Assembly: GCA_027919835.1 (NCBI GenBank)
Contig: JANVFP010000024.1
Coordinates: 310,001 to 374,000 of the forward strand
DNA from: Lentinula raphanica
Taxonomy: Eukaryota; Basidiomycota; Agaricomycetes; Agaricales; Omphalotaceae
Direction: 5' to 3'
Length of the DNA stretch: 64,000 nt
A program made the position numbers and the translations under genes. Positions 48,314 to 64,000 of this stretch are shown piece after piece (the stretch's first letter is position 1; each line of letters begins with the position of its first letter). Below the pieces are notes generated by a model. It saw only the letters and a program-made list of their open reading frames with translations. It did no database searches and was not told the DNA's origin.

Positions 48314-49150
48314 TTGAATCTTGAGAATGAAATCTCGGAAGTCAAAGCAGGGAATACCCTGCCTGTTATAGTATTATAACCACGATAAGACATTATACAG
48401 AAGAAAGTCTATACCGTAACATTTCCGTCAACGTTCAGTGCATTGGAACACTTGTAACTTGCCAGAGCCGTAAGTATTAAAACAGCATTGTATAGATCTG
48501 GATGATGCACAGCAGCCACATATCGCTAAAGGACTGTATTTGAACGTCGCAAAAAGTGACAAACAATGGAAATTGTTCGAAAATTTTATTTCGGAAAGAG
48601 TAATAAAAGGTTTGTAGAGTAGAATTGAGAACAAGGAGCGGAAAATGCGTGTATCGGTAGCGGTAGAGTTATGAAGTGAAGCAAAAGACAGATAGTGATG
48701 AATATTAATCAAATGGTCAACAAGAACTGTGGAAGTCAGTCAAGCGAGAGATAGTATAGATAGTGTATGAAGCGATGAAAATGGGAAGGAGCGAGAACGG
48801 TTCAATTGTGAATGGTATACGAAGGACCAAGAAGGGGAACAGCCGAAGCAACAGATACAACGCCATCTTCAGAATAGGTGTACCATCTGAATCTCCATGT
48901 CTGGAGTTTCCTGGACAGCAGATGACTTGAGTGGCACGACATCACCATCGTTGACCATAAACAAAGTGTTCATCAGTATCGGTAACGAGGTATAAAGTCG
49001 GTTCTTAGTATAATGCCTTATGACAGGTCACTTAGCACGAACACTGAGTACGACTTCACGGATTCGTCAATCAAATTGTATTTATAGCGAGGTGTGGGGC
49101 GTTGTCAGAGATTCCGCACTATCTTATATCTCAAGTCGAACGCAGTCTTG
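48314..49150. other. non-coding, boundary between the KDZ element and the composite retroelement
   Basis: No gene was seen. There is a short inverted repeat (GTTATA-GTAT-TATAAC) near 48365-48380. The palindromes typical of the retroelement start to the right, at 49153. Confidence 0.4.
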
Positions 49151-49152
49151 TA

Positions 49153-50682
49153 AGATCTTTTAGATCAGCAATACTGGTCAGCAGAACGAAGTGACACGGA
49201 TATACCAGTCGTAAGATCTGGACTAAGGGGTTTGTTTTGAGTGGCTTCCACTCGGATAAGGGTTTTTTAGGCTCGGAAAGCAACGGGGTACCAGACGTTA
49301 TGGTAGACCAATCGATTCCGCTCCCGGGTGAAGCAGTACTGATCACTATTCTCAGTAAAACCTCGAAGATCACGCAGATCACCAATCACTACGTGTCAAC
49401 TTGAACAGAGCCACCAAAACTCTGCACATTCACTCGGCACAACCTGAGACCAAGTCCTCTGTATCTCCGGAACGGAGTCTACCTTCAACTAACAAGTGAC
49501 AGACACCAAGTCAAACCACTCAAAAGTCGGGCTTATCGCGATGAAGTAACACACTTAATCTGCAAGGTCCGGTACGGCTTAGAAGCCTTTACTCCCACGT
49601 ATGGATGAAAAGGATTACCAGTTCAGAGAGATCTGGGCGCGAAACTTATTTCATTTGTGCGGATACAGGTCTTTAAGTACACTACGAAAAGTCCAATACC
49701 CGTATTTGTCCTTGATCTAGTAGATCTAGCTATTTCTACGGACGGAGTCCGATAATATACACTTAAATAGTAAAATATGACTGAAACGATACAAACACGC
49801 AAGGAAATAGTAAAGAAAACAGAGAAAAAGATGAAACTTGTCCGTATTTCGTCGTACTTTTGCCAGATCTAGAAGACCAAGCAAGTTCCGACCATGGTCT
49901 GTGCGGCATCCACATGCTAGGGTGCCTAACTCGTCAGAGTGGCTCCTGCCTGTGTTGCTCAAGTGTTTCCGACGAATTTGCTTCCGCGGAATGGTAGTGG
50001 TCTTCCCAAGTTAATGAGATAGACTCGTAACAGCGGTTGATCTCGCGGATCAGGTAGGTCTGGTCCGTAGCTTTCGAACGGTATGCATATAGCCTGGTGT
50101 TCTGGAGCGGACAACGAAGATAAATGCTTCAGAAGTGTTTTCCGTAGGTTTCCGCGCGTTTCCGTGAGTACTGGTCAAAGCTGTACATAGCATACGCTAT
50201 ATCCCAGTTTAGAACTTGAACATATGCGTGTTTCCGCTGCGGGTTTCACCCGTACTGCCACGGAAATGCTAGATCATCATGTTTCCGACGGTTTCCGCTA
50301 CTTTGCGTAGGGTTTCCGTGTGGTAACTCGTCCGGATAGGTTCTCATCGTGTCTGATCTGCTAGATCAAGTGAAATTTCCGTCATCACAGCCAAGTACCT
50401 AACTCAGTTGTGCCAATCCGGCAGATCTTGATACTAAGTCGATATTCCCTTGGTGTGCTCGTACCAGTAGTCAGCATTCTTGAAGGATCCCCGACCAAGG
50501 GTGCGAGCAATAGCTCTAAGTGGATATTCATGGCTGATCCTGCCAACGGATCTGTATCCTAGCTTATACTGATACAAGTTTGACTGCTAGTTCGGGCTCA
50601 CTACAGTCCTTATTGATACTAGGCAACGGTCTAAGTTGATCTTTTTGATCATTGCACGCCTGCGCGGAAAAACCGCGCAACA
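49153..50682 (-). other. candidate 3' LTR / untranslated region of the composite gypsy-type element
   Basis: This gene-free region is rich in TTTCCG and in the TGATCT-N3-AGATCA palindrome. Read on the minus strand, a purine-rich AGTTTGGGGGAGA (complement of 50683-50695) is followed at once by TGTTGCGCGG (50682 downward). That is the arrangement expected for a polypurine tract next to an LTR beginning with TG. The LTR's other end cannot be set because the partner LTR lies outside the window; the left limit given is only the first palindrome. Confidence 0.35.
50661..50679. repeat. hairpin with 7-bp GC stem
   Basis: TGCGCGG-AAAAA-CCGCGCA is a perfect stem with a five-A loop. It lies immediately left of the first CTCCCCCAAACTAA motif. 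Confidence 0.75.
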
Positions 50683-50683
50683 T

Positions 50684-50718
50684 CTCCCCCAAACTAAAGA
50701 TCTGACCGTCCCCGGTCA
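50684..50718. promoter_or_regulatory. 14-mer plus hairpin module, copy 1
   Basis: CTCCCCCAAACTAA (50684-50697) is followed by the hairpin TGACCG-TCCC-CGGTCA (50703-50718). The same 14-mer occurs at 54537 and 56827, each followed by a hairpin of different sequence. Candidates are a polypurine tract (minus strand) or a promoter element of the plus-strand accessory genes. Confidence 0.6.
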
Positions 50719-51140
50719 TCGCTATGGGTAGTGTAGGCTCGTATCCCTCGAAAGGAGTGGTACTGTAGCTGATCCGACAGATCAATCACTTTTTCCGCAA
50801 CATTCTGACTTTATTATACCCGGTGATCTAACAGATCAAGTTGATCCGTTGATCTTAGCACCCGTACCGACAACTCCGCTGTCCTCTTGTCGAAGACGCT
50901 AAGTCCTCGGTTTGTTATCGGCGCTTAATTTCCGAGTGTGATATCATGACATAAATCACGCTTCCAATTCTATCACATCACATATACGCTTCCTCGAAAC
51001 AACTTCTTTTCAACATTTTACATACTATCCCTATGCCTAGGCCTGGGATTAGTAAGTGCTGACAAAGGTTCAATCGGACTTGGAAAATTTCTCTAAGTTC
51101 GTTCTTCCTTCTCCCCGTCGTTGTCCACGTCCTCGACACG

Positions 51141-53860
51141 ATGGCGTCGTCTTCCAAGGCATCCTCCTCTAAGAAAAGACCGGCTCCATCCGCATCCGAC
51201 CCTCCTGTTCGCAAGAAGCTTTCAGTCCGTCCCGTAGATCGCCTCGACTTCGAAGCCGTTCATCGCGTAGCCTTCCATGCCGAGCTTAGGGAATTGGGTA
51301 CGACACCTGATAATCCCGACGCCCTTTTCCTGCCAGCTTCTGCGGAAGAGTGCTCTTCTTTGGTCAATCATTGGAAACATCTTCCCAACTCCGCGCCCCC
51401 AGCTTTCAGCCTTTCACGTTACAACCGCCCTGAGGACGTTAGCTTTTCGGAGGTCCTGGACCAAAACATCGACGATATACGGCCTGATACCTTCTATCCC
51501 CGTCTGTTGACAACCTTCTGCAAAACCTTTGAAACCGGTCCCGTGTCCCGCGCCGAAGGCTTCCAACTTTTCCAAGCGTTGTCCTTCCTACAACATGGGT
51601 TTTCACGCATTATTCGTGGTCATCTGGCTAAACCCGAAATCCATCGCCGACTGCTGGCCTTTACCAACCTAGATAATTTTTCCGACAGTTTGGTACGTTT
51701 CGATTTCTCTCGTTCTCTTGTTCTTATGTTGACCTCTTCGATCCCTTAGCAATATTATCAGTTATACTGGCATGGACACCAGAACTGCCCGCTCGTCGCC
51801 CCCCTTCTTGTTATTCTGATCTGCGAATTTTGCGAGGAGCACCTGACTGAGGGTGAATACGCCGCCCGAGTTTACGATGCTCGGGTTCGGGATGGTCCTG
51901 GCATGAGTACCAAGACACGAGACCGGCTGCTGGTACAAGTTTCCGCCTCCTGGTCCGATCTTCTTACTTAACTAAGCTCTTTCCTAGGAGGACATCCCCG
52001 AGAGCCCTGAACTCCATGAACTGGCTGTACCCTTGCCGCTCGATCCTTCCACTCGGGAAGGACAGCTCTTGCTACGGGTGTCCAGTCAAGGATCCCGGGT
52101 GGACAAGATCGTGCATCCTATCTCCCTGAAGGTCCTCGTACCAGATGCCTCCTTCACAGTTACCTCTCCTCCTAAGCCAAAACGCCGACTGCGCCCACTG
52201 TCTCCAGACTTTGACGAGCCTCCTACTGCCGCTAGTACACCGACTGCTTCCAAAAATCGCCCGCTTGCCCAACCTTTTCCAGTCTCTGACGACCCCATTA
52301 TCTTGGAGGAAGACGAACCTGACACTTTTAAAGGTCCGGCTGCCCCAGACGTTCTGATCGTTCGTCAAAGCATCGCGCGGGCTGCCAAGGCGAAACCCAA
52401 GCTTCCGGATGAGCTTAGGCAGGCTCCTGCTCCCCTACCAGCGAAACGAGAACGGTCCCCTGCTGAAGTCCCTCCTATTCTTGATCCTCCTACCAAGAAG
52501 CGCCGCACTTCTAAAGCTGCAGGCAAAGCTCGAGCCGGTTCTCCCGTTCTTTCCCGTCCTGATCCTCCCGTGATCATAGAACGGGAACGGTTGCGCATTC
52601 AGGAAGGCGAGCCAGACTATTTCTACGGCGACGACGTCGATACCACTACCCATCATCGCTTCCTGACCAATCCTCATTTCCAGCCCAAGACTCCCTTTTC
52701 TGACCTGATTGCTAAGGCTACGGACGCCAACAAGCGGGGTGCCAAGATCCCTTTCTTGCGACCACCGAAATGGAACGTTTCGGACGAATTGAAGGATTTT
52801 GGCGCTTTTGCCACCATTGGCGACACCACCTTCTCTCTGCAGGGCTTAAGCCGTTTCGGCTATGCCAGTTCTCGATTCCTATGGCCGACCAACAACCGTA
52901 CCCTGCCTTCCCCTGAGTCCCTTTACTCGACCAACAACTGCTTGACTTGTATCAGCCGCGGGGAGGTTTGTGAGAGCAGCGATAAGCCAGGTGGCGCTTG
53001 CCGGCAATGCAACGGTACCCATCGATCATGTACCAGTTGTTTGTCCTTGGAAGACCACCGCGACCGATTCCTCGCCCTTCATAACCACGTTCAGGGTTAT
53101 CCTAATGGTAAGTTTCCCAGTTCTCCTTCCTTAACCGTGTTCTGCTGCTAACCCTTACTTCCTAGGTTATGCCGCCGCCCTCGATCAGTATGCTACAGCG
53201 TTGGACCACATCACCAAACTCCAGTCGACCTTCGCTCCGCTTTTTCAGGATGCCCAGCAAGCGCTCCTGAAAGGCATGCAGACCGTTCGCAGTTCAGGCT
53301 TTGATCTGAACGTTGTGCTTTCCCGATGGGCGGAAGACAATCCAAACTTGCCTTTGGACTACGACATCGTAACCTGGTTGGCTACACTATTCGGATGGAC
53401 TTCTTCGTGCAACTTGGTAGACTACCTTTCGACTCCTGAGGATCAGGCCAAGCTGGCTGAGTTCATGCGAGACCATCCTCCCATTCCTTCTTCTTCAGAG
53501 CCTCCCTTCCTTGACCCAACTCCTCTTTCTCCTCGCCCGTCGTCATCCATTACGCCTGCTACCCCGCTTCCCTCAGTTACTGCCATGTCGGAGCCCCTGC
53601 TTCGGTCTCGTCGTCGTCCTGCAGCCGGGGTACCGGTAAATTTCTCTTCCAGTCAACAGTCACACACCCCGCTTGCTTCTACCACAGCCGATGAGGAATT
53701 GGAGATCGAGGAAGGTACTTCGAGGACTTCCGTAGCCCAGGCTCTAGTTGCTGAGTATGATGATAGCGATGAGGATGGTGACGCCGGGGCCGATACGGAT
53801 GAGGCTGAGGTCGAGGTCGCCACTCCCGCGTTTGTGAAATCGCCAAAAATTCGTAAGTAG
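51141..53860 (+). CDS. accessory gene X: Zn2Cys6-spaced cysteine cluster protein
   Basis: Four exons (51141-51692, 51750-51932, 51988-53107, 53166-53860) join in frame to 849 residues without any defect. A Ser/Lys-rich N-terminus is followed by an ordered block (about 30-260; YYQLYWHGHQNCPLVAPLLVILICEFCEEHL). Next come a Pro/Lys/Arg-rich linker with NLS-like PTKKRRTSK and, at about residues 563-593, a cluster C-X2-C-X6-C-X9-C-X2-C-X6-C. This is the exact spacing of fungal Zn(II)2Cys6 domains, though lacking most of their basic residues; another Cys follows three residues later. A helical segment and an acidic tail (DDSDEDGDAGADTDEAE) complete it. It lies antisense to gag-pol, between pol and the putative 3' LTR. 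A DNA-binding or regulatory role for the element is inferred; I recognise no named homologue. Confidence 0.72.
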
Positions 53861-54536
53861 AGTAGTATTTCGGACTCATTATCACACGAGCCATACTTCC
53901 TACTTGTACTTCTATCTGTCTTGACCCCCGGGGCACTTCCCTCTTACTCCGCCTCTAGTGACACCTAGTAGGCTTTCTTTTTGTTAATATCAGCGCCCTT
54001 GTGGCCTTTATCTTGTCTTTTACTGTCTGATCTCTCCTTAAGAATCCCTAAGTTAAGCCTTTAAGACACTTGAGATATCTTCTAAGATGTCTTCTGAGGT
54101 TTCCTTTAAGTCAGCCCATAAGTTAATGCTTCTTTTTCCCTGGCTGTTACCTGATAGAACACTATAAGTATTTTATTGACACTATGTTGTTCTTCTAAGT
54201 ATCTGCCCTAGACCTTCTATGTCTTTTCTAAAGCTTTTGCATTACTTTCCCGCTGTCTTTTCCGCCCGAATTGATGTCTGATCTGCTAGATCATTTTGAT
54301 CTGCTAGATCAGACTCATCAATGTTATTTTTTTCGGTTATCAAGTTGGTGGTTGCAGCCTCATATGGCATGTTAAATCCATTGGGCTTTACAAATTGCAA
54401 ACTGCGTCGGTTTTAGATCTAAGTCTTTGCGTTGTACGCATGCTTAAGCTGTCAATGAGCACAGGTCTTTTAGATCTCGTAAAATTTTCATGAAAATTTC
54501 TGAAATTTCGAAAATTCTTGAAACACCGTGTGTCCC
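53861..54536. other. spacer with multiple palindromes
   Basis: There is no gene. The spacer holds two adjacent exact TGATCTGCTAGATCA copies (54279-54293 and 54297-54311) and the perfect 18-bp palindrome at 54482-54499 (AAATTTTCA followed by its complement). Its AT content is higher than in the flanking exons. Confidence 0.6.
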
Positions 54537-54597
54537 CTCCCCCAAACTAAAGCTCAGCAGTCCCCTGCTGACCCGAAGCATCGGAAAAGGTATAAAA
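54537..54597 (+). promoter_or_regulatory. 14-mer plus hairpin (copy 2) and TATA box of gene Y
   Basis: CTCCCCCAAACTAA (54537-54550) is followed by the hairpin TCAGCAG-TCCC-CTGCTGA (54554-54571) and then TATAAAA at 54591-54597, 34-43 bp before the start codon of gene Y. The TATA box supports a real plus-strand promoter here. Confidence 0.6.
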
Positions 54598-54630
54598 GCC
54601 CTTGATCTAAGAGATCCGACTCCCAACTCA

Positions 54631-56652
54631 ATGAAAAAAATGGCTCCCAACTTCGAGTACCACAATCTCCCTATCTCGCTTGAAGCTGACTTTGCCAACT
54701 GGTGCGTCGACGCGGAGTACTGGGCTGCTCGTGTTAGCGATGACAAGAGCCTGGCCTGGCAAGGTGCCAAGTACAGTTCCAGCAAGGACAAGGTCGAGTT
54801 CACCACGTCCAACAAAACGATCTTTTTGAATGATGTCCGTTGCGCGTACACTCATCTGGTACGGAAATCGTCTGATCTGCTAGATCTAGCAAAGTTAACC
54901 ATTTCCCGTTAGCTCATTCGAGTGTCCCGCGACGCTGCGTGTATGAACAAGGAATATCTGCGGGCGTACGACAATCTCGCGGAGGAATTACTTTCCGCCG
55001 TGAATGCGTACCGCACAATCCGTGACGAGATCCCTAAGCAGTTTCCTAAACTCTCTGAAGAGGGAGGGAAGAACGCTGAGATCGTCAGTTTCTACATTCA
55101 GCTGAACGACCTTCGTCGCAAAAAGCTCCGTGAGGACCAAGGCAGACAGGGTTCTCCTGCTGTCAGTACTCGCGGATCGAGTGTTCCACCTGCTGATCCT
55201 GAAGGACCGTCGAAATCCAAGTCGAAAGGCAAGGAAGTTGCGACTGATCCAGCAGATCCAGCAGTTTCTGATGCTGATGCCAAGTTCATGGCAGAGGTAG
55301 TGCGTTTCCGCAACTATTTTCGAAGATTCGTTTATTGACTAAAGGTTCCAGGATGCTGATCTTGCAGAACATGGTCCTTCTCCTCCAAAAGGTCCTCGAG
55401 GCGCACTTGCTAACCATTTACGAGGCCGCGGACTTCCCATGCGAGGCCACTTCCGTAGTCCACGCGAGCAACGCTTTGAAATGCAAGAATCACTGCGTAT
55501 GGGTGTGCCTGTTCCGCGGTACGACCCTCCGGTAAGTATTGGCCCTTGATCTGTTAGATCAGCTGCTAACTGTTTATCCAGCCTCGTCGTGCTGAACTCG
55601 TCATCGATCATATCATTGGTATGGACGAAAGGATCAAGCACGCCAAGGAGGAACGTGAAAAAGGCGAGAAGGGGAAGAAGACCACGGAAGCGACTCCTCC
55701 TCCTCCTACCAGGCCCTCTACGCGTTCCAAAAGCAAGAAGAAATCTGCTGACGACGAACCCGCCGCTCTGGCAGATCAGGATGTCTCGGTACGTTGCTGA
55801 TCTTGTAGATCAGACAAGTTTATGACTAACCCGTGCCATAGATGGCTGACGACGTCGAGGATTCTACTCCTGCGAAGGCTAAGACCAAAACCAAAAGGCG
55901 CGACACCGTCGACGACGATGACACTCCGAAGTCTTCCAAGAGCAAGAGCAAGCGCAAACGTTCCGAACGCGATGTCGGTCCTGCGGACGGTGATGAGACT
56001 GAGCGGGCTCTGTCTCCTCAAGCACATAGTACTGTGCACGCTGTAACCGCGATCTCCCAGCCTCGTGCTGTTGGTGAAGATCTGATTAAGAGGGTGAAGT
56101 ACTCGTTGGAACTCGCGGATACCAGTGAGTACCACTTCCATTTTCCGCTTTTTCGTACGGACTTCTACGGAAACTCGTTGATCTGCCAGATCACGCATTT
56201 TCCGTTAGATATCCTTTTGCCTAGTCCAGAGACCTTCCGCAAGCTTCGTGTTACTGATTATTGTTACAGGTACCCCCGACGATACAGATCATCGAGATCT
56301 CGTGCAACTTCTTCACAACATCGGACTCGCCCACAACCCGGAGGTTGAATCGTACACCGAAGAGCAGTACAATGCCTTCATCAACTTCCATACGACCCAA
56401 CTCTTCGACTGTGTTATGAAAGCTCGTTTCTATGCACACCGTGGGGAGGCTAGTCAACGGATCATCGACAACGCCAGGGCTGCTCGGAAGGCTGGTGAAC
56501 CTCTGCCCAAAGACGAGGACACCACCATGACTCCTGCCGACGTTGAAGAGGTGTACGTGTTTTCCGCACCACCGTCGCTGCCACCCGTAATTAAAATTGC
56601 GCAGACAGACTTAGAGGATCCCGAAATGCAAGGGCCACGCTCCGCACCTTAA
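54631..56652 (+). CDS. accessory gene Y: unknown, Lys-rich, palindromes in introns
   Basis: Start at 54631 or at the in-frame ATG 54640. Six exons join without a defect through introns starting at 54859, about 55302, 55532, about 55789 and about 56131, ending at TAA 56650-56652 (about 520-530 residues). The N-terminal 150 residues are an ordered alpha-helical region (FANWCVDAEYWAARVSDD, KEYLRAYDNLAEELLSAVNA). A long Lys/Ser/Asp-rich linker with SKSKSKGKE and KSSKSKSKRKR stretches follows, then a C-terminal helical domain (TDDTDHRDLVQLLHNIGL, FDCVMKARFYAHRGEASQR). No known domain was recognised. Four of the five introns carry a TGATCT-N3-AGATCA-type palindrome between donor and branch site. 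The gene is antisense to, and directly behind, the integrase gene; basic linkers suggest nucleic-acid contact, but function is unknown. Confidence 0.7.
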
Positions 56653-56826
56653 GCAAGTGCTTATCGAGGCTGACCATCTAGATCATCGTTCATTCTGCCC
56701 TGTCGCCTATTTTTATACCTGTACTTTTGTCAAGTCAAGTATCATTGGTAGTTTTTGAGGTAATCCAGTGGCAACTAAATTCCTCGAGTGATTATTGAGA
56801 TAGAATAAGTTGAAACATCGCGGAAA

Positions 56827-56857
56827 CTCCCCCAAACTAACTGATCTGTTGGATCAG
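56827..56857. promoter_or_regulatory. 14-mer plus hairpin module, copy 3
   Basis: CTCCCCCAAACTAA (56827-56840) is directly followed by the hairpin CTGATC-TGTTG-GATCAG (56841-56857). It sits between the stop codons of gene Y and of the integrase. On the minus strand it reads as a purine-rich tract just downstream of pol, the place of a polypurine tract. Confidence 0.6.
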
Positions 56858-56863
56858 GCATGT

Positions 56864-58539
56864 TTAGAAAGATTTCCGACGACCACTTCGTCGTGGACCA
56901 TTCGGTAGAGACGGATTCGCCTCTTCCTCTTGATCTTCGGACTCAGCAGCCTTCAGATCCTCCGGATCAAGCTGTTCAACAGGCGGAACCAGTGGTGGTT
57001 CAACGGAATTCGACTGATCATCACCGGAAATGTTTATTCGAGGGACAGTACTGAAAATAAAGTCCTCCACTTCCTCAGGTTCGTCTTCCTCATCCTGTAC
57101 CATAGATTCTAACTGCTCAGGCGACAGATCTATCAGATCATGTATATTTTCCGGCAGTTCAATCGGTTCGTAACGAGCATGATGCGGGATCACACGGAAA
57201 GCACCCACTTTGTCTTTAAGCACAGTGCCATCCATTTCCGCTATGATATATGCGCCTCCTCGTGTTCTCCGGATGACAACCATAGGTCCACAGTATCGAA
57301 GGTACATTTTCCGATCCAAATTCTTCTCGATGGCGGTGTTCCGTACTTGTACTAAGGTACCCGGCTTGAAATCCCAGTCCTTAATGGTGTACTTGTACTT
57401 TTCCTCGAAAACTCTCGCTTCTCGACGTTTGTTCTCGTCGATCCGTGATTTCATGTTCTCGATGAAGGAACGATGTTTGGAAAGAGCCTGAGCCCGGAAA
57501 CCCAGTAACTCTTCCCGTGATAGTATTCAATTTGGTGGATTGACCAAATATGTAGATTCAACAATATCGAAAGGTAGCAGAGGTTCCGTACCGGTAGCTA
57601 CGAAGTATGGGGAACAGCCTAAACCTCTCCGTGCAGTAATACGATCAGCCCAAAGTATTGGTTTCAAGAAGTAGTACCATTTTGACAGATCTCCCGCACA
57701 CGCTTTCGCAAGTGCTTGTCTCAGATCAAAGTGAGCACGCTCAATCTTTCTGTTAGCTTGTGAATTATAAGGCGATATCTGTATTCCACGGATCCCGTAT
57801 TTCTGTTCGAGCCATCGCAACATAAGCTTCATCTGTGGTGCATTGTCCGAGACCACGATTTCCGGACATCCCCATCTACATATGATGTCTTCAAAGAACC
57901 ATTCCGCGAGTGATCTCGCGTTTTCAACTCTCAGTGCCCTAGCTTCCGACCAACTCGACAATGAATCCCTTCCGTGAACGATATATCTGCAACCATTACT
58001 GGCCGGAGACATAACCATCGTATCGATATGTATCTTTTGGAACAAGGATGGCGTGAAGGTCACCGTTGGAGGGATCCGTACCAAAGACCTAAGTCGATCT
58101 TGGCAGGCTTGACATGTTTTCACATACCACTCCACGTCTTTCTCCAGATCAGGCCACCAAAACCTCTTTTCTAAGAAGTCTTTCGTAGCATATGTACCCT
58201 TGTGTCCTAAAGCATCATGAGCACTGTGCAATAGATACATTCGTTTTTCCGGTTCAACCACTAAACGCAGTTGATCTGTGGATGGTTTCCGATGGAACAG
58301 TCGACCTTCCGAGTCTATTGAAAAGGACAGTGTTTTCCGGTCCATTTCCGCTCGTTGTCTCTTGTCCAACTTCGCGAATTGCTCAGCATTCGGGTCCTTA
58401 AGCCATGCTCGGATTTCCGGTAACTGCTGATCTAGACGATTTCCGCCATCCGATCTATGAGATATCGGATATTTGTGATCAGGTCCCCAAGTAGCATTGT
58501 CGGGGATCGCAGTATACTGCAGAAACTGAGAGGTCAAAC
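56864..58539 (-). pseudogene. gypsy-type integrase, one in-frame stop
   Basis: This is the pol C-terminus. It has an HHCC zinc finger (HSAHDALGHKGTY...CQACQ) and a DDE core: IHIDTMVM (Asp), VVSDNAPQM (Asp) and the Glu in NRKIERAH. A C-terminal basic/beta domain (YLRYCGPMVVIRRTRGGAYII) is followed by an acidic tail ending RRSGRRKSF. Between VNPPN and ILSREELLGFRA the frame is broken only by a TGA at 57529-57527; both sides are otherwise in the same frame. The N-terminal boundary is the MITE at 58542. In life the protein would insert the cDNA; this copy needs stop-codon readthrough to make its C-terminal domain. Confidence 0.85.
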
Positions 58540-58541
58540 AT

Positions 58542-58816
58542 CAGGAAAAATATTCTCATCTCTAGAGTCCCCAGAGATACCCCCAATTCCTAGGTAGTCT
58601 CAGAGAGCCTAGAGTATCTGAGTTCTTTGAGGCTTCTAAAAGTTCTCTGGGTGCTTTCTAGTGCTTTCTGGTGCTTTCTGGTGCTTTCAGATGCTTTCAG
58701 GATCTTTCAGGATCTCTAGGATGTTTTTTGATCTTTCAAAGCTCACAAAAATCTCTGAGCAGCCTAGGAATTGGGGGGTATCTCTAGGGACTCTAGAGAT
58801 GGAAATATTTTTCCTG
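58542..58816. mobile_element. 275-bp MITE inserted in pol
   Basis: Terminal inverted repeats of about 53 bp (58542-58594 and 58764-58816) start CAGGAAAAATATT and end CCTAGG inward, with three mismatches and one indel. The interior has a short tandem of GTGCTTTCTG-like units and no ORF. AT dinucleotides flank both ends. Removing the element plus one AT restores pol in frame (...GMPS-C-LTSQFLQY...), which fixes the boundaries and indicates a 2-bp AT duplication. No transposase is visible, so it is non-autonomous; the superfamily is uncertain (Tc1/mariner-like elements duplicate TA, not AT). Confidence 0.9.
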
Positions 58817-61322
58817 ATGAAGGCATTCCCGAGGCCTCTAAACGTTCTTTGAGGAATGCATGCTGGATCTCTTCCTCCCGGGCAACTTGAAGATCTTCCG
58901 CAAACTCATCTTCAATGGTCTCGCAGAAGTATCCTGTCCGGGGATCTATATGATCTTTGAATGATTCAAAGGGCAATGGATCGTCCGCTTCGTCCGCTTT
59001 GAAGAACCTAACGTTGTTGGAGTCATCTGCATCTTCTGCTAGATCCTCTTCGGTTTCCCGACGAGGGGTAGTCCAACCTCCCGGAGGTCTTCGAGACAAA
59101 CCATCAGGTCCAAAGGTTGCTCCTTTGACATGAATCAAATCGAAATGGAATTTACGGATATCTTCAATCCAACGGTTGATCGTAGCGTTTGGACCACTAC
59201 TCGGATTTTCAAGCATTCCTTGAATATAGCTAGCATCCGTTTCCACCGTGAGTTTCCGACATCCATAAAGAAGATAGTGTGTTGCTCGGAGAGCAACCTT
59301 CAAACCATAGAGTTCACGCTTAGATTGAGAAAACCGAGCTTCACGTTCATTATACGGGATGGATCCGAAGTAATTATAGTAAATCTTCGTCTGATCTACA
59401 GGATCAATCTGATAGATGTAAAATCCCGTACCCATGTAAGAACTATCCACTGCTAAGTGTGTTTCCCAGTCATATACTATGACTCTTAAGGCTGGTGCAT
59501 TACGGACTCCGTCTTTCAACAGGTCCATGGCTATGACATGCTCATCCTTCCACTCAAACGGAATATTCGCCGTTAATTTGGTCAAAGGTGAGGCTTTCTT
59601 AGCGTAATTGTGAATGAACATCCGGAGCTGACCAACAGTTCCCAGAAAGGCTCGGACCTGTGTCTTAGAAGAGCACGGAGGCCAAGTTAGAACCGTAGTT
59701 GCGATTCTATCTTCCGGTTTCTGTCCTTCGTACGTGCAACGGTGTCCAACCACTACAGTTTCAGCGCAACACAGGAATGCTTTAGGTCCCGAGAAGGTTC
59801 CGCCGCAATACCGCATCCGCTGAATGATTCGGTTCACATTTTGGAGATGCTCCCAGACAAATCGTCTGATCAAAGGATTTTCAGGGATAGTTTCGTATCC
59901 GCCACCCGGTAATTCATAACGAGTCCCGGGGCCTCTGATAGGAACATCATCGACGTATGGAATAGTATATTCCGGAATTTCATCTCGCATCATGTAAGTT
60001 ACATCGTCATGGAATATCGGAACAGAGTTCGTCCAACCCATAGGCAACTTTACGAGACGGTGTGGTCCGTACGGAGTTTGGAATGTCGTCAGATCTCGCG
60101 AACTAACATCGAGTGGTCGTTCATCATAACCCACATAGATGTCCAACAAACCACCACAGGCACGACCCGCAAAATGACGAGCAATATCCGCGGTAGCAGG
60201 AGGAATCCCGGAGTGTTGAATGGTCACCTTGTTCAAGGGTTCCAAACTATGTACTAAACGAAGACTCGTTCCATCCTTCTTGACCACACAAAACCATTTT
60301 GAACGATAACTCGAGCAAGATGGTTCATAAACTCCAGCATCAATCTTATCCTTGATGATCTTACAAACCTTTTCGAAGATTCCGGGAGGAATTGGAATAT
60401 TTCGTTCGACCCAGGGCTCATGAGGTATGACCGGAATTTTCACGGGAGGAAAGAAGTCCTCTCTGAATGTTCCGCCCTCGGAAGCTTCCCAAGCAAAACC
60501 CATTTCCTGCAACTTCATCATATGATGAACTAGCTTCATCTCCTCGTCCGTAAGGAAACCTTCCGCATGGTTTTTCTCGATGATCTCTTTCCGTTCTTGC
60601 GTATACCGAATACCCGGCGTGAATTCCGGAGGATGAGTTGGTAGATCTGGTAGATCAGCCAAAGGATCCCCGTAAATGTGTCTCCGCACACGGAATTCTT
60701 CCGGTAGATCAGCCTTGACAGGGCGAACTTTCACCGCTACAGGCTTATATTTTCGAGAACCGAAGACCGAAACTGGCTGATCTGGCAAAGACACATCATT
60801 ATATGCGCATATATGCTGGTCGCTCGTCTCATTCTTGAGTTCCCAGAGCTTAACACGATGCATCGCAGCCTCCAAATCTTGGGTCATTGAAGACAATTCC
60901 GCATCTTTTGTTTGATCTACTTGATCTGGTAGATCTTCCGTGTTATCATATGGACGAGTTAACCCGTGTAAGTCTTTCCACCTAACGTCCTTTGTCATGG
61001 ACTGGTAAAAGGTCTCTTTCAGGTCCTCAACGGTCGAATCAGCTCTAAATCCTTCCTTCCATGGGTTGATCACACGGTTTTGTTGATGATCTACACCTTT
61101 GTTCAGGTATAGTGATATGGTTTCGGCAATTCCGGGGTGGGACTTCTCGATCGTTGGCAGACAGCATTGTACATACACGTCCGCTAATTCTTCATCTGAG
61201 AAGGTGCCTCGTTTCACCTGATTCGACTCTATAACCACTTCCTCCGCTTGAGCATCCCAGTACCCACTAAGAGCGATTTCTACCTCTCCCTGGTCGCTAC
61301 TCAGATCCCAGAGGTTATTCAA
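58817..61322 (-). pseudogene. gypsy-type reverse transcriptase and RNase H
   Basis: The minus frame is open through about 835 residues up to the MITE. After a long N-terminal extension come the reverse transcriptase blocks: RWFCVVKKDG/LRLVHSLEPLN, GLLDIYVGYDERPLD, FQTPYGPHRLVKLPMGWTNSVPIFHDDV and the catalytic box YTIPYVDDVPI. A connection follows (KTQVRAFLGTVGQLRMFI, FEWKDEHVIAMDLLKD). RNase H is next (LAVDSSYMGTGFYIYQ, SQSKRELYGLKVALRATHYLLYGCRKLTVETDASYI), ending DLIHVKGATFGPDGLSRRP. The order protease-RT-RNaseH-integrase defines Ty3/gypsy. There is no ATG at its 5' end; it connects to the protease frame by a -1 shift at 61322-61328. The domains themselves look intact. Confidence 0.92.
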
Positions 61323-61834
61323 AAATTTGGTTGCGGAACTTTCTCTGCCTCCTCGTGAGTGTCTTCCCGTCTTGATTCGGGTTGCAACTGTTGAGTTGGC
61401 TGTGATACTTTTCGTTCCACCACCTTTCTTGGTGCTCTCGGTCCATGTCCTTTCGGATATGTACCCATGGTATACCGTTTTCCAGTATTCGGATCCGTAA
61501 TCGTAAGTTCCTGATCACCCGATCCAAAAGTCTGAATGACACTCTCAGTTAACACATCAAACGGACGTCCCAACAGTATTTCGAAGGGAGCCTTTTCTTG
61601 GACATGTAACTGCAAATACACTGTGACTGGTCCAAATCGAAAGGGCACATTTCGGGCTAAACCTTTGGTCCGCGCGATCCCGCCATGTACATTTTGCATC
61701 TGTATGGTGATTCCGGGATCCCAACCTAGACCTAAGCCTAACGCCACGCTCATATCGATTGCGACTATCTGTGATCCTGAGTCCAGGAGGTTCTCTACTT
61801 CGAGATCTTCCCGATCATTCACAACAGGCCACAC
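61319..61834 (-). pseudogene. gypsy-type aspartic protease region
   Basis: The frame contains the retropepsin-like block VENLLDSGSQIVAID with the catalytic DSG, then LARNVPFRFGPVTVYLQLHV and EILLGRPFDVL, the typical protease core of basidiomycete gypsy elements. It ends VPQPNF-stop. At its 5' side the upstream frame (ending ...VDENDERRDMTIVAT) is out of register by one base near 61840, which is probably a mutation. Confidence 0.82.
61322..61328 (-). promoter_or_regulatory. A_AAT_TTT slippery heptamer at the protease/RT junction
   Basis: On the minus strand the protease frame reads CCA AAT TTT TGA. The heptamer A-AAT-TTT has the canonical X-XXY-YYZ form, and a -1 slip leads exactly into the RT frame (AAA TTT TTG AAT AAC). 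It may be a programmed frameshift site or an ordinary indel in the T5 run of a decaying copy. Confidence 0.45.
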
Positions 61835-62949
61835 TGCACGGAGACCATTGCCATAGTAGCAACTATGGTCATATCTCGTCGTTCATCATTCTCGTCTACA
61901 TCACTCAAGAATGATTCTACTGGATCTACTTGAACAAACGCTCCTGCTTTCATCCCATCCCGATCCTCAGATAATCTTTCAAAAGCCCAAGCTTCGGGTA
62001 ATGCTAGATCATCCACGGAAATGACTTGCTCGTCTTCGGAATCATCATTTGAAAGTGTTTCCGTAGCTAGATCTTGTTGATCAGCCACGTTCAGCAGCAT
62101 TTTCTTTCGATCTTGCGGAAGTACTCGCTTATTCCGTATCTTTCGTGCTACGATCTGCCTGATCTTCCCCGAAAGCTGTAAAGCTTCGGAAGAAGTCAAT
62201 TCAATCGTCTTTCGCACTATCCGGTCAGCAAGCTCTTCCTCTAGACCAGGCGTGAACAGTTCATTCTGCAGCCGGTATTTTGGTGCCTTCGAAGATCCCT
62301 TAGATTCAGGTATCTTTTCCGGCTTTGGTTGATTTCGAGGGTGAGGTGTAACTTCCTGGGCTGAACATCATCAAATGGTCTTCTCGGATTTTCCGTACGA
62401 GGAGGTGACGGATCGCGGAATCGTACTTGCTTCGATTTCCGTTGATCTGTCTGATCAGGCTCGCGTCCCGAACCTAACGCATTCTCATCCGTTAAATCGT
62501 CAATGGTCACTGACTGTATCTTTCCAAAGCAGCTTCCCTCAGTGATTGAGAAGAATTGGGGTCTGATCCAGCAGATCTGTCATGATTAGGCATAGAATTG
62601 TCCGGATTGGACTTCGGTTTTTCGGATGTTTGTTTTTACTAGGGTTATTTCGATCTATGGGTATATGCACCCCGTCAAAGCGTTTATTCTTGACGGCAGG
62701 TATTGCTTTTGGTGAGTTAGGCTTTGGGGCACCCTCATGAGTTGTTGCCTGTTGCTGAGACCGTGTCCTTGGCCCAGAGGTCAACTCAATCATTGGATTC
62801 CTCAGTTTCCCGACTCGTTCGTGTACACCGTAGCCACACCATTGCTAGATCTCCCTTGCACCATTCCGCCAGATTGGCAATGACCATCCAAGCTGGGGAT
62901 CCGGCCAACTGTTCCGAGTAATCCTCATTGTCCGGGATCATCTCGTTCA
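61835..62949 (-). pseudogene. degenerate gag/pre-protease linker
   Basis: The frame KYRLQNELFTPGLEEELADRI...IRQIVARKIRNKR (about 62290-62090) is typical of the segment before gypsy protease. Upstream it is interrupted by a one-base frameshift near 62355, between DDVQPRK and EVTPHPRNQ. Between 62510 and 62950 only short disordered frames remain (RTRSQQQATTHEG, MTDLLDQTPI). I see no complete gene here. Confidence 0.6.
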
Positions 62950-64000
62950 TCATTGTCGAAACTCGGGCCATCCTTTGGCCTGACCATATTTCATGATCTT
63001 TTGGTATCTACTCTCACTTCCGAAGTTATTCGGTAGCGGAGACCCATCCTTCAACTTAAGACGCTTTGGATCTTGCGGATCACGCATAATCCAACCTTTC
63101 CCTAAGAGTTCCAAGAACATTGGACAACTTTGCATCATATGATTCGGTTCCCGACAAAGGAAACACAACATCTCAGACCTTTGACCTTGTGCATTACTCG
63201 GATTCGTGTTAATGATTCCGCGGGGAGGCCCACTGTTTCCGGGATTACCACTACCAGAAGCGACAGCATGGGGCTGCACCCGTTGCGCAGGTTGAACATT
63301 TCCAGTCTTGATGTTAGCCAGCATTTGAGCCAACGTCTCAAGTTCCTCTTTGTAGGTAGCCTTAAGTGCTCCCAAATCTTTGACCAACACACTGTACTGG
63401 TCCCTATTCGCAGCTAGTGCTCTTTCCGTTTCCTCGGAAGCCTCTCGTTTCACTTCAACGGGCTTAGCTGGAGACCGGAAGAAATGCGAAGATCCGGTAC
63501 TTCTTCTTTGATCACCGGAGGACCACCAATCGGAACGTATACGCCTCCTCTTGATGGGTTTCCGCATTGAAGACCACCCATCCCGACTTGTTACCGTCCG
63601 GTACAACGATTCCAAGGGTGGGTGCCTTGCTACGGCCTCTGCTGCTTCCTTGTACTCTATGAACAGATATGGATCATCGACCCGACGTTTCTCTACGCGG
63701 AAAGCAGGTACTGCTGTTGAACCTTACGATTCACAGCTTTCCGTAACTCGTCATCGAATGCTGACAGGAAAAGAGACACCAATTCCGTGTTTCCTATCGC
63801 CGGAGGCGGTTTCAACAACTTATTGGCTTCTACCTCCATCAACAAACAATATCCGAGCAACCTATCTCCGTCCCGGACACCCAAAGGGCATAGTTCTGTA
63901 CGATCTGCAAGAGCGTATTCTTCGAACCCATTGGTCTCCCTAGAGATGCCGGGAATCTTTCACACAAGGAACGCAGAAAACAGTCCGCGTCTTCCCTTCC
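62950..64000 (-). pseudogene. gypsy-type gag with CCHC zinc knuckle, runs off the window
   Basis: From the window edge leftwards the capsid-like sequence (LVSLFLSAFDDELRKAVNRKV) changes frame once near 63715-63725 and continues as AFRVEKRRVDDPYLFIEYKEAAEAV. It then runs on to a coiled coil (63450-63330) and one zinc knuckle, C-X2-C-X4-H-X4-C (CFLCREPNHMMQSC, near 63170-63125). It ends at 62950 with KYGQAKGWPEFRQ. Gag would package element RNA in the cytoplasmic particle. The frameshift makes the copy non-functional unless it is supplied in trans. Confidence 0.8.

Follow-up and report, generated by a model that had tools for sequence, protein, structure and literature searches.

Two spliced genes lie antisense behind the pol region of a Ty3/gypsy-type retrotransposon in Lentinula raphanica, and the question raised by this locus is whether they belong to the element and, if so, what they might do for it. 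We analysed a stretch of 64,000 nucleotides, which is referred to here as the window. An earlier note on this DNA had assigned gag, protease, RT-RNaseH and integrase to the minus strand as far as 56864, with two multi-exon plus-strand genes, X (51141-53860) and Y (54631-56652), lying before an LTR/polypurine tract at about 50.69 kb. The coding order was borne out, the span of X was exact and that of Y right, and the polypurine tract was located at 50683-50699. The left edge given in that note, 49153, sits 170 bp inside the 3' LTR (48983-50682). The features of the window copy are as follows.

48979..48982, target site duplication TCGG (4 bp), with its partner at C24:376508-376511
48983..50682, minus strand, 3' LTR of 1,700 bp (TGTTGCG...CGTTA), with a direct repeat at C24:374810-376507
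50683..50699, minus strand, polypurine tract adjoining the 3' LTR
50684..50697, plus strand of the polypurine tract, first copy of the 14-mer CTCCCCCAAACTAA
50703..50718, hairpin with a 6-bp stem beside the polypurine tract, identical in sequence in family-B copy C1
50719..51140, plus strand, 5' flank of X, presumed promoter/5' UTR
51141..53860, plus strand, gene X, 849 aa, 4 exons (51141-51692, 51750-51932, 51988-53107, 53166-53860)
51141..54275, plus strand, exchangeable cassette (coding sequence and introns of X plus its 3' region)
54280..54310, overlapping palindromes GATCTGCTAGATC at 54280 and 54298, right cassette edge
54537..54550, second copy of the 14-mer, beside a hairpin upstream of Y
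54591, TATAAAA upstream of Y
54631..56652, plus strand, gene Y, Lys/Arg-rich protein of about 552 aa, 6 exons (54631 or 54640-54858, 54913-55299 or -55296, 55352-55531, 55582-55788, 55842-56124, 56270-56652)
56827..56840, third copy of the 14-mer, at the Y/integrase junction
56864..58540, minus strand, integrase (C-terminal part 56864-57526; H2C2 and core 57527-58540)
58539..58819, MITE-like insert of 281 bp with inverted ends, interrupting pol of the window copy
58820..61514, minus strand, reverse transcriptase-RNase H (RNase H above the Pfam cut-off, RVT_1 only at E 0.06)
61319..61882, minus strand, aspartic protease (Pfam PF13650, E 5e-6)
62950..64000, minus strand, gag, continuing past the window towards the 5' LTR (zinc knuckle only at E 0.07, below the Pfam cut-off)

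Triplets of the 14-mer were sought among 100 of its 217 sites. The 5' LTR, which the earlier note had advised seeking rightward on the contig, was found there, beyond the window's end (at 64810-66507 when window numbering is continued), giving an element of 17,525 bp from LTR to LTR. Its two LTRs differ in 21 of 1,698 columns (K2P 0.0125), and LTRs of different copies are 0.010-0.019 apart; since the gap within the window copy equals that between copies, this copy is either old or recombinant. Four other copies were read for target duplications, which are GCGC in C23, CCGC in C26 and GCGA in C8, and absent in C13 (CCGT/GCGC at its ends), whose LTRs are also unlike each other (18/1,698). From their near-identical LTR pairs (1/1,699 and 4/1,701 differences), C23 and C26 are judged to be young copies. 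The order PR-RT-RNaseH-integrase, together with the LTR pair, the target duplication and the polypurine tract, places the element in Ty3/gypsy (Metaviridae). In the integrase, H2C2 scored above the Pfam cut-off and the core below it. The nearest solved chain to the pol of a second family, B, is Ty3 Gag-Pol 7q5b (E 3e-36), and a Pfam chromodomain was found at E up to 0.5 neither in family-B pol nor in the window's integrase C-terminal ORF. The sequence TGGAGCCCACCGCGAGG stands 2 bases behind the 5' LTR, at the place tested as a candidate tRNA primer binding site. The 281-bp insert is missing from the homologous place in C23, C26, C13 and C8. A 96% copy of it was seen at C26:225357-225644.

The four-exon splice of X equals the annotated L. 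raphanica protein C8R42DRAFT_725565 (100% over 849 aa), and an annotated relative of Y, P0057, shares joins 1/2, 3/4 and 4/5, with the exon 2 donor 3 bp later. Pfam gave no known domain in X or in Y. The X protein consists of a helical N domain (residues 40-305), a low-confidence linker and a C part with seven spaced cysteines that includes the stretch C-x2-C-x6-C-x9-C-x2-C-x6-C; a permissive form of this six-cysteine pattern occurs in 39 of 56 X relatives, several of the remaining ones being partial models. The N domain, modelled confidently by AlphaFold, had no clear match to any solved fold, and the cysteine region was not resolved (pLDDT 28-48 in residues 541-620). Judged by eye, both proteins carry Lys/Arg-rich stretches. 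Two protein searches, limited to candidates with 5-residue words in common and scoring 8,000 of them, returned 56 and 55 X proteins, with none from outside L. raphanica, and a Y search found 4. Because each X protein stands for a cluster at 90% identity, near-duplicates are not counted separately.

Could X and Y simply be genes of the host that happen to adjoin a gypsy insertion? Their splicing and their annotation as hypothetical proteins would fit, yet they are multi-copy, lie between LTRs and keep a fixed orientation to pol, which leaves this explanation next to no chance, and we rejected it. Y was found at 40 or more places in the same genome (40 of 80 candidates scored), 26 of 40 over the full query. 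At 36/40 of these places an X match lies no more than 9 kb upstream of Y and shares its strand, and pol lies within 9 kb downstream at 29/40, on the opposite strand in 29/29. This count used all 40 Y matches, 75 of 118 X matches (43 weaker matches or second pieces omitted), 50 of 57 pol matches and 4 of 40 family-B pol matches; the underlying searches gave at least 118 matches for an X exon (110 of 140 candidates scored) and at least 57 for pol (50 of 409 scored). Among 40 listed LTR matches, all at 98-100% (40 scored of 302 candidates), 10 pairs bracket 17-31 kb; 9 of these enclose a listed Y, and in the tenth an X match adjoins the LTR (15 of the 40 Y matches entered this count). Neither outcome that the earlier note had named as refuting appeared among the best candidates scored in the genome searches: we found no intact element copy without X and Y, and the two genes are not single-copy genes of the host. 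In family B, whose pol is 78% identical, the X-Y antisense order is the same. The element is multi-copy and recently active, with X and Y antisense, spliced and placed between integrase and 3' LTR; the proposal that the two genes are parts of it is strongly supported by co-occurrence, LTR bracketing and the second family.

A shared palindrome and TTTCCG-rich composition had also been put forward as a sign that all parts form one unit, and this argument held in part. With X set aside, the part of the element inside the window contains 33 GATC-N5-GATC sites, where 60 shuffles gave a mean of 0.48; the window's remaining 48,982 bp contain one (shuffles averaged 1.2). These palindromes run over the LTRs, spacers, Y introns and coding gag-pol; with TRF at score 40, tandem repeats appeared only within the MITE-like insert, so the palindrome is dispersed. 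TTTCCG/CGGAAA is likewise enriched outside X. The window's X has no GATC-N5-GATC, nor do the X stretches of C23, C26, C13 (part), C8, C11 and C5 (part), nor the family-B X of C1. Composition therefore ties Y, and not X, to gag-pol, and with the palindrome missing from X in all copies read, we rejected it as a demonstration that X is native. In family B the dominant palindrome form is a different one (AGATCT), and TTTCCG is not in excess.

X is a cassette whose old versions have been shuffled among near-identical backbones. Between the window and the same place in C23, C26, C13, C8 and C5, the cassette is 64-70% identical over the aligned part, and beyond its edges identity is 95-98%. The borders are sharp and common to the copies, running from the X start codon to the palindromes in front of Y. 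The backbones are 95-99% identical between copies, with pol dS of 0.031-0.071 (five copies), and Y is 94-100% alike (exons 2 and 6 against four copies: dS 0.01-0.09, dN 0-0.018). For X exon 3, pS is 0.69-0.83 and dN 0.22-0.55 (six copies), and four-fold divergence in X (0.59-0.80) exceeds that of pol between families A and B (0.556). By these substitution estimates, the silent sites of X are saturated and its protein is constrained between copies with near-identical backbones. The pattern recurs in family B, where C1 and C26 agree at 94-98.6% outside X and yield no DNA alignment over 396088-399034, and where full-length pol is 98-100% identical while X falls from 100 to 45%.

The large divergence of X between close copies might also come from exceptionally fast mutation in place, by hypermutation or positive selection. 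This is very improbable: the 3' region of the cassette is diverged too (72-82% where aligned), dN lies well below dS, and the allele-sharing pair of the window and C11 has changed less in X than in Y. Hypermutation itself was rejected because these two copies share X at 99.6% (12/2,720 differ) while their Y genes are about 2% apart. The 5' flank of X is 97-98% identical to the window in C23, C26, C13 and C8, and 99.3% in C11, where it is no more distant than X itself; the cassette can therefore travel together with this flank. X proteins are also mosaics themselves, X recombining internally. Protein P0018 is 85-100% identical in blocks to the best N1C1 protein up to residue 239, and 95-100% to the best N2C2 protein from residue 240 to 719 in blocks with data. 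The 32 family-A X proteins in our trees (37 of 56 proteins, partial or far ones omitted) comprise 13 N1C1, 13 N2C2, 6 N1C2 and 0 N2C1, with N1, C1 and C2 supported and the fork uniting N2 weakly supported; strains are interleaved among the X proteins.

Taken as a whole, we favour the reading, at a probability of about 0.55, that X and Y are element-encoded regulators and that X is an old, exchangeable cassette kept by an arms race. Exchange would most simply occur by template switching in the conserved flanks during joint reverse transcription of two element RNAs, Y moving along with the backbone. X and Y would each be expressed from their own upstream flank, and most likely they act in the nucleus to regulate or protect the element family that encodes them, for which the family-specific GATC palindromes are candidate binding sites in a manner analogous to VANC anti-silencing. 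A host factor could equally be the binder of these sites. The diversity of X would most likely stem from the arms race itself, rare versions escaping host silencing or interference by resident copies. The earlier note had suggested that the accessory proteins could be regulators or silencing antagonists, and the dispersed, family-specific palindrome makes this idea testable.

The same data can be read without selection for diversity. X may have been exchanged freely like any other segment, one recent backbone having spread through copies with old X versions; template-switch recombination between LTR-element variants is documented in the available part of a Drosophila study (PMC12992720), C13 lacks a target duplication and has unlike LTRs, and reassortment of old versions could yield the pattern. 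This neutral course is possible, although on the unlikely side, as the old variation of the backbone is gone and many saturated X versions have survived, in two families and across strains. It is also conceivable, albeit tentative, that X is an allelic recognition gene whose distinct old versions are kept by negative frequency-dependent selection, within the genome and across strains. An element would then gain by placing a new X in the same backbone, and the system would match, in a eukaryote, the swapped immunity modules of phages, the constant partner being Y together with the GATC palindromes.

Temperate phages do swap their immunity regions, and X might in the same way limit copy number or exclude elements with the same X, favouring a backbone with a new one. 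The swapping of a single gene while the backbone stays constant, the presence of many alleles in one genome and the interleaving of strains would suit such heteroimmunity; however, the flank upstream of X hardly varies from one version to the next, which would require any matched operator to lie inside the cassette, and we regard the idea as unlikely. Escape from RNA silencing is a doubtful candidate. X and Y would make dsRNA because both are antisense to genomic RNA, and a diverged X would keep one copy's genomic RNA from pairing with another's X mRNA. The saturated silent sites and constrained protein of X fit this, and the available text of PMC7264820 considers dsRNA arising from the antisense ORFs of plant elements, but Y is antisense as well and near-uniform across copies, so dsRNA would still form there.

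The sequence signature of X, with its old alleles, constrained protein and precise exchange in two families, implies that X matters and that its diversity is favoured or at least tolerated. In plants, LTR retrotransposons with antisense genes are on record, where the function of these genes is not settled, and their role now becomes testable in a mushroom, a relative of shiitake. The locus may also present, outside plants and animals, an arms race that sets retrotransposons against silencing or against one another.

Among the titles and abstracts listed by our search of the open-access literature, none dealt with antisense accessory genes of fungal gypsy elements or with X-like exchange, which speaks only weakly for their absence. 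In fungi, Zn(II)2Cys6 proteins have the spacing C-x2-C-x6-C-x9-C-x2-C-x6-C and typically a basic loop. X resembles them in this spacing, but it lacks the loop, usually has a seventh cysteine, has a cysteine region that AlphaFold left at low confidence and had no match to the family profile in 15/15 X proteins at E up to 10. The VANDALs of Arabidopsis are DNA transposons. As far as the available parts of PMC5735166 and PMC10398659 describe, the VANDAL/VANC system shares with our element a diverging, element-encoded accessory protein family and a short motif that is dense in one element family, different in another, and present in non-coding parts and introns. VANDAL motif arrays are tandem repeats in a plant host, whereas the motif here is dispersed, also through coding gag-pol, and binding to it is a candidate function.

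Among plant gypsy elements, antisense ORFs between pol and the 3' LTR are described for Grande (gene23), RIRE2 and Retand, with an internal promoter reported for Grande and a TRP28 protein thought able to bind DNA (PMC7264820, PMC11963269, in the parts available). TRP28 (PF04195) had no Pfam match in 15 X proteins (E up to 10) or in P0057 (E up to 0.5). Our element differs in its fungal host, in having two multi-intron genes, and in that X is a swapped, multi-allelic cassette, an exchange which the available text does not describe for plants. The Drosophila rover/iERV variants, in the accessible portion of PMC12992720, offer a parallel for that exchange: coexisting LTR-element variants recombine, LTRs are unlike and internal sequence is exchanged. 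The env-F tree there mirrors the pol and gag trees, whereas X here is decoupled from its backbone.

The element that carries X and Y, the two accessory genes on the plus strand, extends past the right edge of the window. Searching the genome (49 Mb in 75 contigs, the window being 310001-374000 of contig C24), we found the 5' LTR that the earlier note had expected in that direction, and it differs from the 3' LTR in 21 of 1,698 columns. The features of this copy are the following:

48983-50682, 3' LTR of the element, which lies on the minus strand; direct repeat with its partner at C24:374810-376507
51141-53860, plus strand, gene X
54631-56652, plus strand, gene Y
58539-58819, MITE-like insert of 281 bp that splits pol; it has long inverted ends, with tandem repeats of 10-bp period in its interior
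C24:374810-376507, past the window edge, 5' LTR

The minus strand between the LTRs encodes gag (weak zinc-knuckle match only), aspartic protease, RT-RNaseH and integrase. We call this family A; for the pol of a diverged second family with the same layout, family B, structure comparison gave Ty3 as the nearest solved relative. The 281-bp insert is absent from the homologous pol place in the copies on contigs C23, C26, C13 and C8, and a 96% copy of it lies within a family-B element (C26:225357-225644). Both flanks of the window copy carry the target duplication TCGG (48979-48982 on the 3' LTR side), and NCGN duplications bound three of four other copies read (C23, GCGC; C26, CCGC; C8, GCGA), the C13 copy having none at its ends. 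These 4-bp duplications share a central CG, hinting at integration at CpG. Since the LTR pairs of C23 and C26 are nearly identical (1/1,699 and 4/1,701 differences), the family has transposed recently. The window copy and C13 are older or recombinant, because their within-pair difference equals that between different copies; with 18/1,698 LTR differences and no duplication, C13 is likely a recombinant of two insertions.

By splice modelling, X has 4 exons and Y has 6; both genes lie between integrase and the 3' LTR. Spliced X is identical across all 849 residues to the annotated L. raphanica protein C8R42DRAFT_725565, and P0057, an annotated relative of Y, has joins 1/2, 3/4 and 4/5 as in Y, with the exon 2 donor 3 bp later. 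Relatives of X and Y sit on consecutive locus tags in the window's strain (647524/647525; 649347/649348) and likewise in strain EV360 (89280/89281). With 40 of 80 candidates scored, the genome holds at least 40 Y places, 94-100% identical, the full query being covered in 26. At 36/40, Y has an X match upstream on its own strand, and pol turned up downstream at 29/40, on the opposite strand in every one of these 29. Ten LTR pairs span 17-31 kb; a listed Y lies inside nine of them, and in the tenth an X match sits next to the LTR. This co-occurrence, fixed orientation and bracketing make X and Y parts of the element, as the earlier note had proposed.

The copies differ sharply at X. Between the window and C23, C26, C13 and C8, the LTR is 98-99% identical, the upstream flank of X 97-98% and Y 96-97.5%, while X reaches 64-70% across the aligned part (77-98% of X); the C5 copy shows 95-97% identity in Y and 66% in X, with 39% of X aligned. 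Both borders are abrupt. The left one lies near the start codon of X, with partial sharing of the preceding 20-30 bp and of the MASSSK codons; the right one lies at about 54276, where the first of a pair of overlapping palindromes is found. Comparing codons gave dS 0.031-0.071 and dN 0.002-0.004 for pol (five copies, ten pairs), dS 0.01-0.09 for Y (exons 2 and 6), and pS 0.69-0.83 with dN 0.22-0.55 for X exon 3 (window, C23, C26, C8, C13, C5). Four-fold site divergence is 0.59-0.80 in X versus 0.556 between the pol genes of families A and B, so X versions in near-identical backbones are about as old as the family split or older, saturation of X silent sites precluding finer dating. Fast mutation of X is ruled out by C11, where X shows 12 differences in 2,720 from the window and its 3' region 0 substitutions and 3 gap columns in 410 bp, while Y is about 2% different; the left flank of X is also close there (99.3%), so X can move together with its flank. 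We regard exchange of an X cassette between backbones as almost certain. The titles and abstracts listed from the open-access literature included no fungal case of such antisense genes, in line with the earlier note, and no X-like exchange; the new part is an exchangeable cassette of old alleles.

Trees of the N and C parts of 32 family-A X proteins gave 13 N1C1, 13 N2C2, 6 N1C2 and no N2C1 combinations, with strains interleaved. P0018, whose closest N-part relative is the window's X, is N1-type, with blocks 85-100% identical to the best N1C1 match up to residue 239; from there to residue 719, the blocks with data are 95-100% identical to an N2C2 allele. Judged from these trees and alignments, recombination is also at work within X proteins. 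The two longest contigs seen, C1 and C2, both start with GATCCAATCCGGCCTG inside an X gene, though their X sequences differ; none of eight other contig starts read does so (C40 starts AGATCC), and the common start is possibly an assembly effect.

In family B, whose pol is 78% identical to that of family A, genes resembling X and Y again lie antisense and in the same order. Identity among its full-length pol copies is 98-100%, fragments going down to 95%, and X among copies with such pol, e.g. on C26, C11 and C15, ranges from 100% down to 45%. The C1 and C26 copies are 96-98.6% identical from the LTR to 396087, show no DNA alignment from there to 399034, and are 94-98% identical beyond. On this pattern, family B repeats the cassette and borders of family A. 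One family-B X cassette also harbors a nested family-A element (C26:206186-223475; LTR pair 4/1,701 different).

Within the window, a PPT-like 14-mer, CTCCCCCAAACTAA, which on the minus strand is the PPT, is confined to the element, where it has three copies:

50684, at the PPT, beside a short strong hairpin
54537, upstream of Y, beside a short strong hairpin
56827, at the Y/integrase junction, beside a weak hairpin

Family B keeps all three sites in C1, and two of three are visible in the C26 stretch read. Exact copies number 217 genome-wide (reversed control, 0). The 100 sites listed form 40 groups, and 27 of these are triplets; the X interval measures 3,824-4,068 bp in 24/27 and the Y interval 2,254-2,300 bp in 23/27. 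The two copies away from the PPT may be PPTs inside the element, or may mark joints where modules were added.

X would be exchanged through template switching within the conserved flanks, a process described for other LTR elements in PMC12992720. X and Y would be expressed from their own upstream flanks and act in the nucleus; both have Lys/Arg-rich stretches by eye, and in X the cysteines are spaced as in a Zn2Cys6 cluster, with no Zn2Cys6 profile match and with this region not resolved in the predicted structure model. The X proteins are constrained, since dN lies well below dS. Building on the observed architecture, co-occurrence, exchange, relative age and constraint, we favor X and Y as regulators or anti-silencing factors of their own family, with an arms race keeping X diverse, and give this whole chain a probability of about 0.55; the main rival reading, neutral reassortment of X among backbones, seems to us less likely.

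The palindrome that the earlier note saw running through gag-pol, spacers and gene Y introns marks the backbone (the element minus X) and is absent from X. The in-window backbone has 33 GATC-N5-GATC sites versus a shuffle mean of 0.48 (maximum 2, 60 shuffles), the window X has 0, and the other 48,982 bp of the window have 1; the X stretches of C23, C26, C13, C8, C11 and C5 also have 0. GATC density per kb is 12.1 in the backbone, 4.1 in the host part, 6.3 in the window X and 3.1-5.4 in those other X stretches. Family B has 5.0 in X versus 14.1 in its gag-pol part, with AGATCT-centred sites and no TTTCCG excess. From these counts, each family's backbone is marked in its own way and X is spared. 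Such family-specific marking resembles that of VANC targets as described in PMC5735166; unlike the targets described there, the GATC motif forms no tandem arrays and also lies within coding gag-pol.
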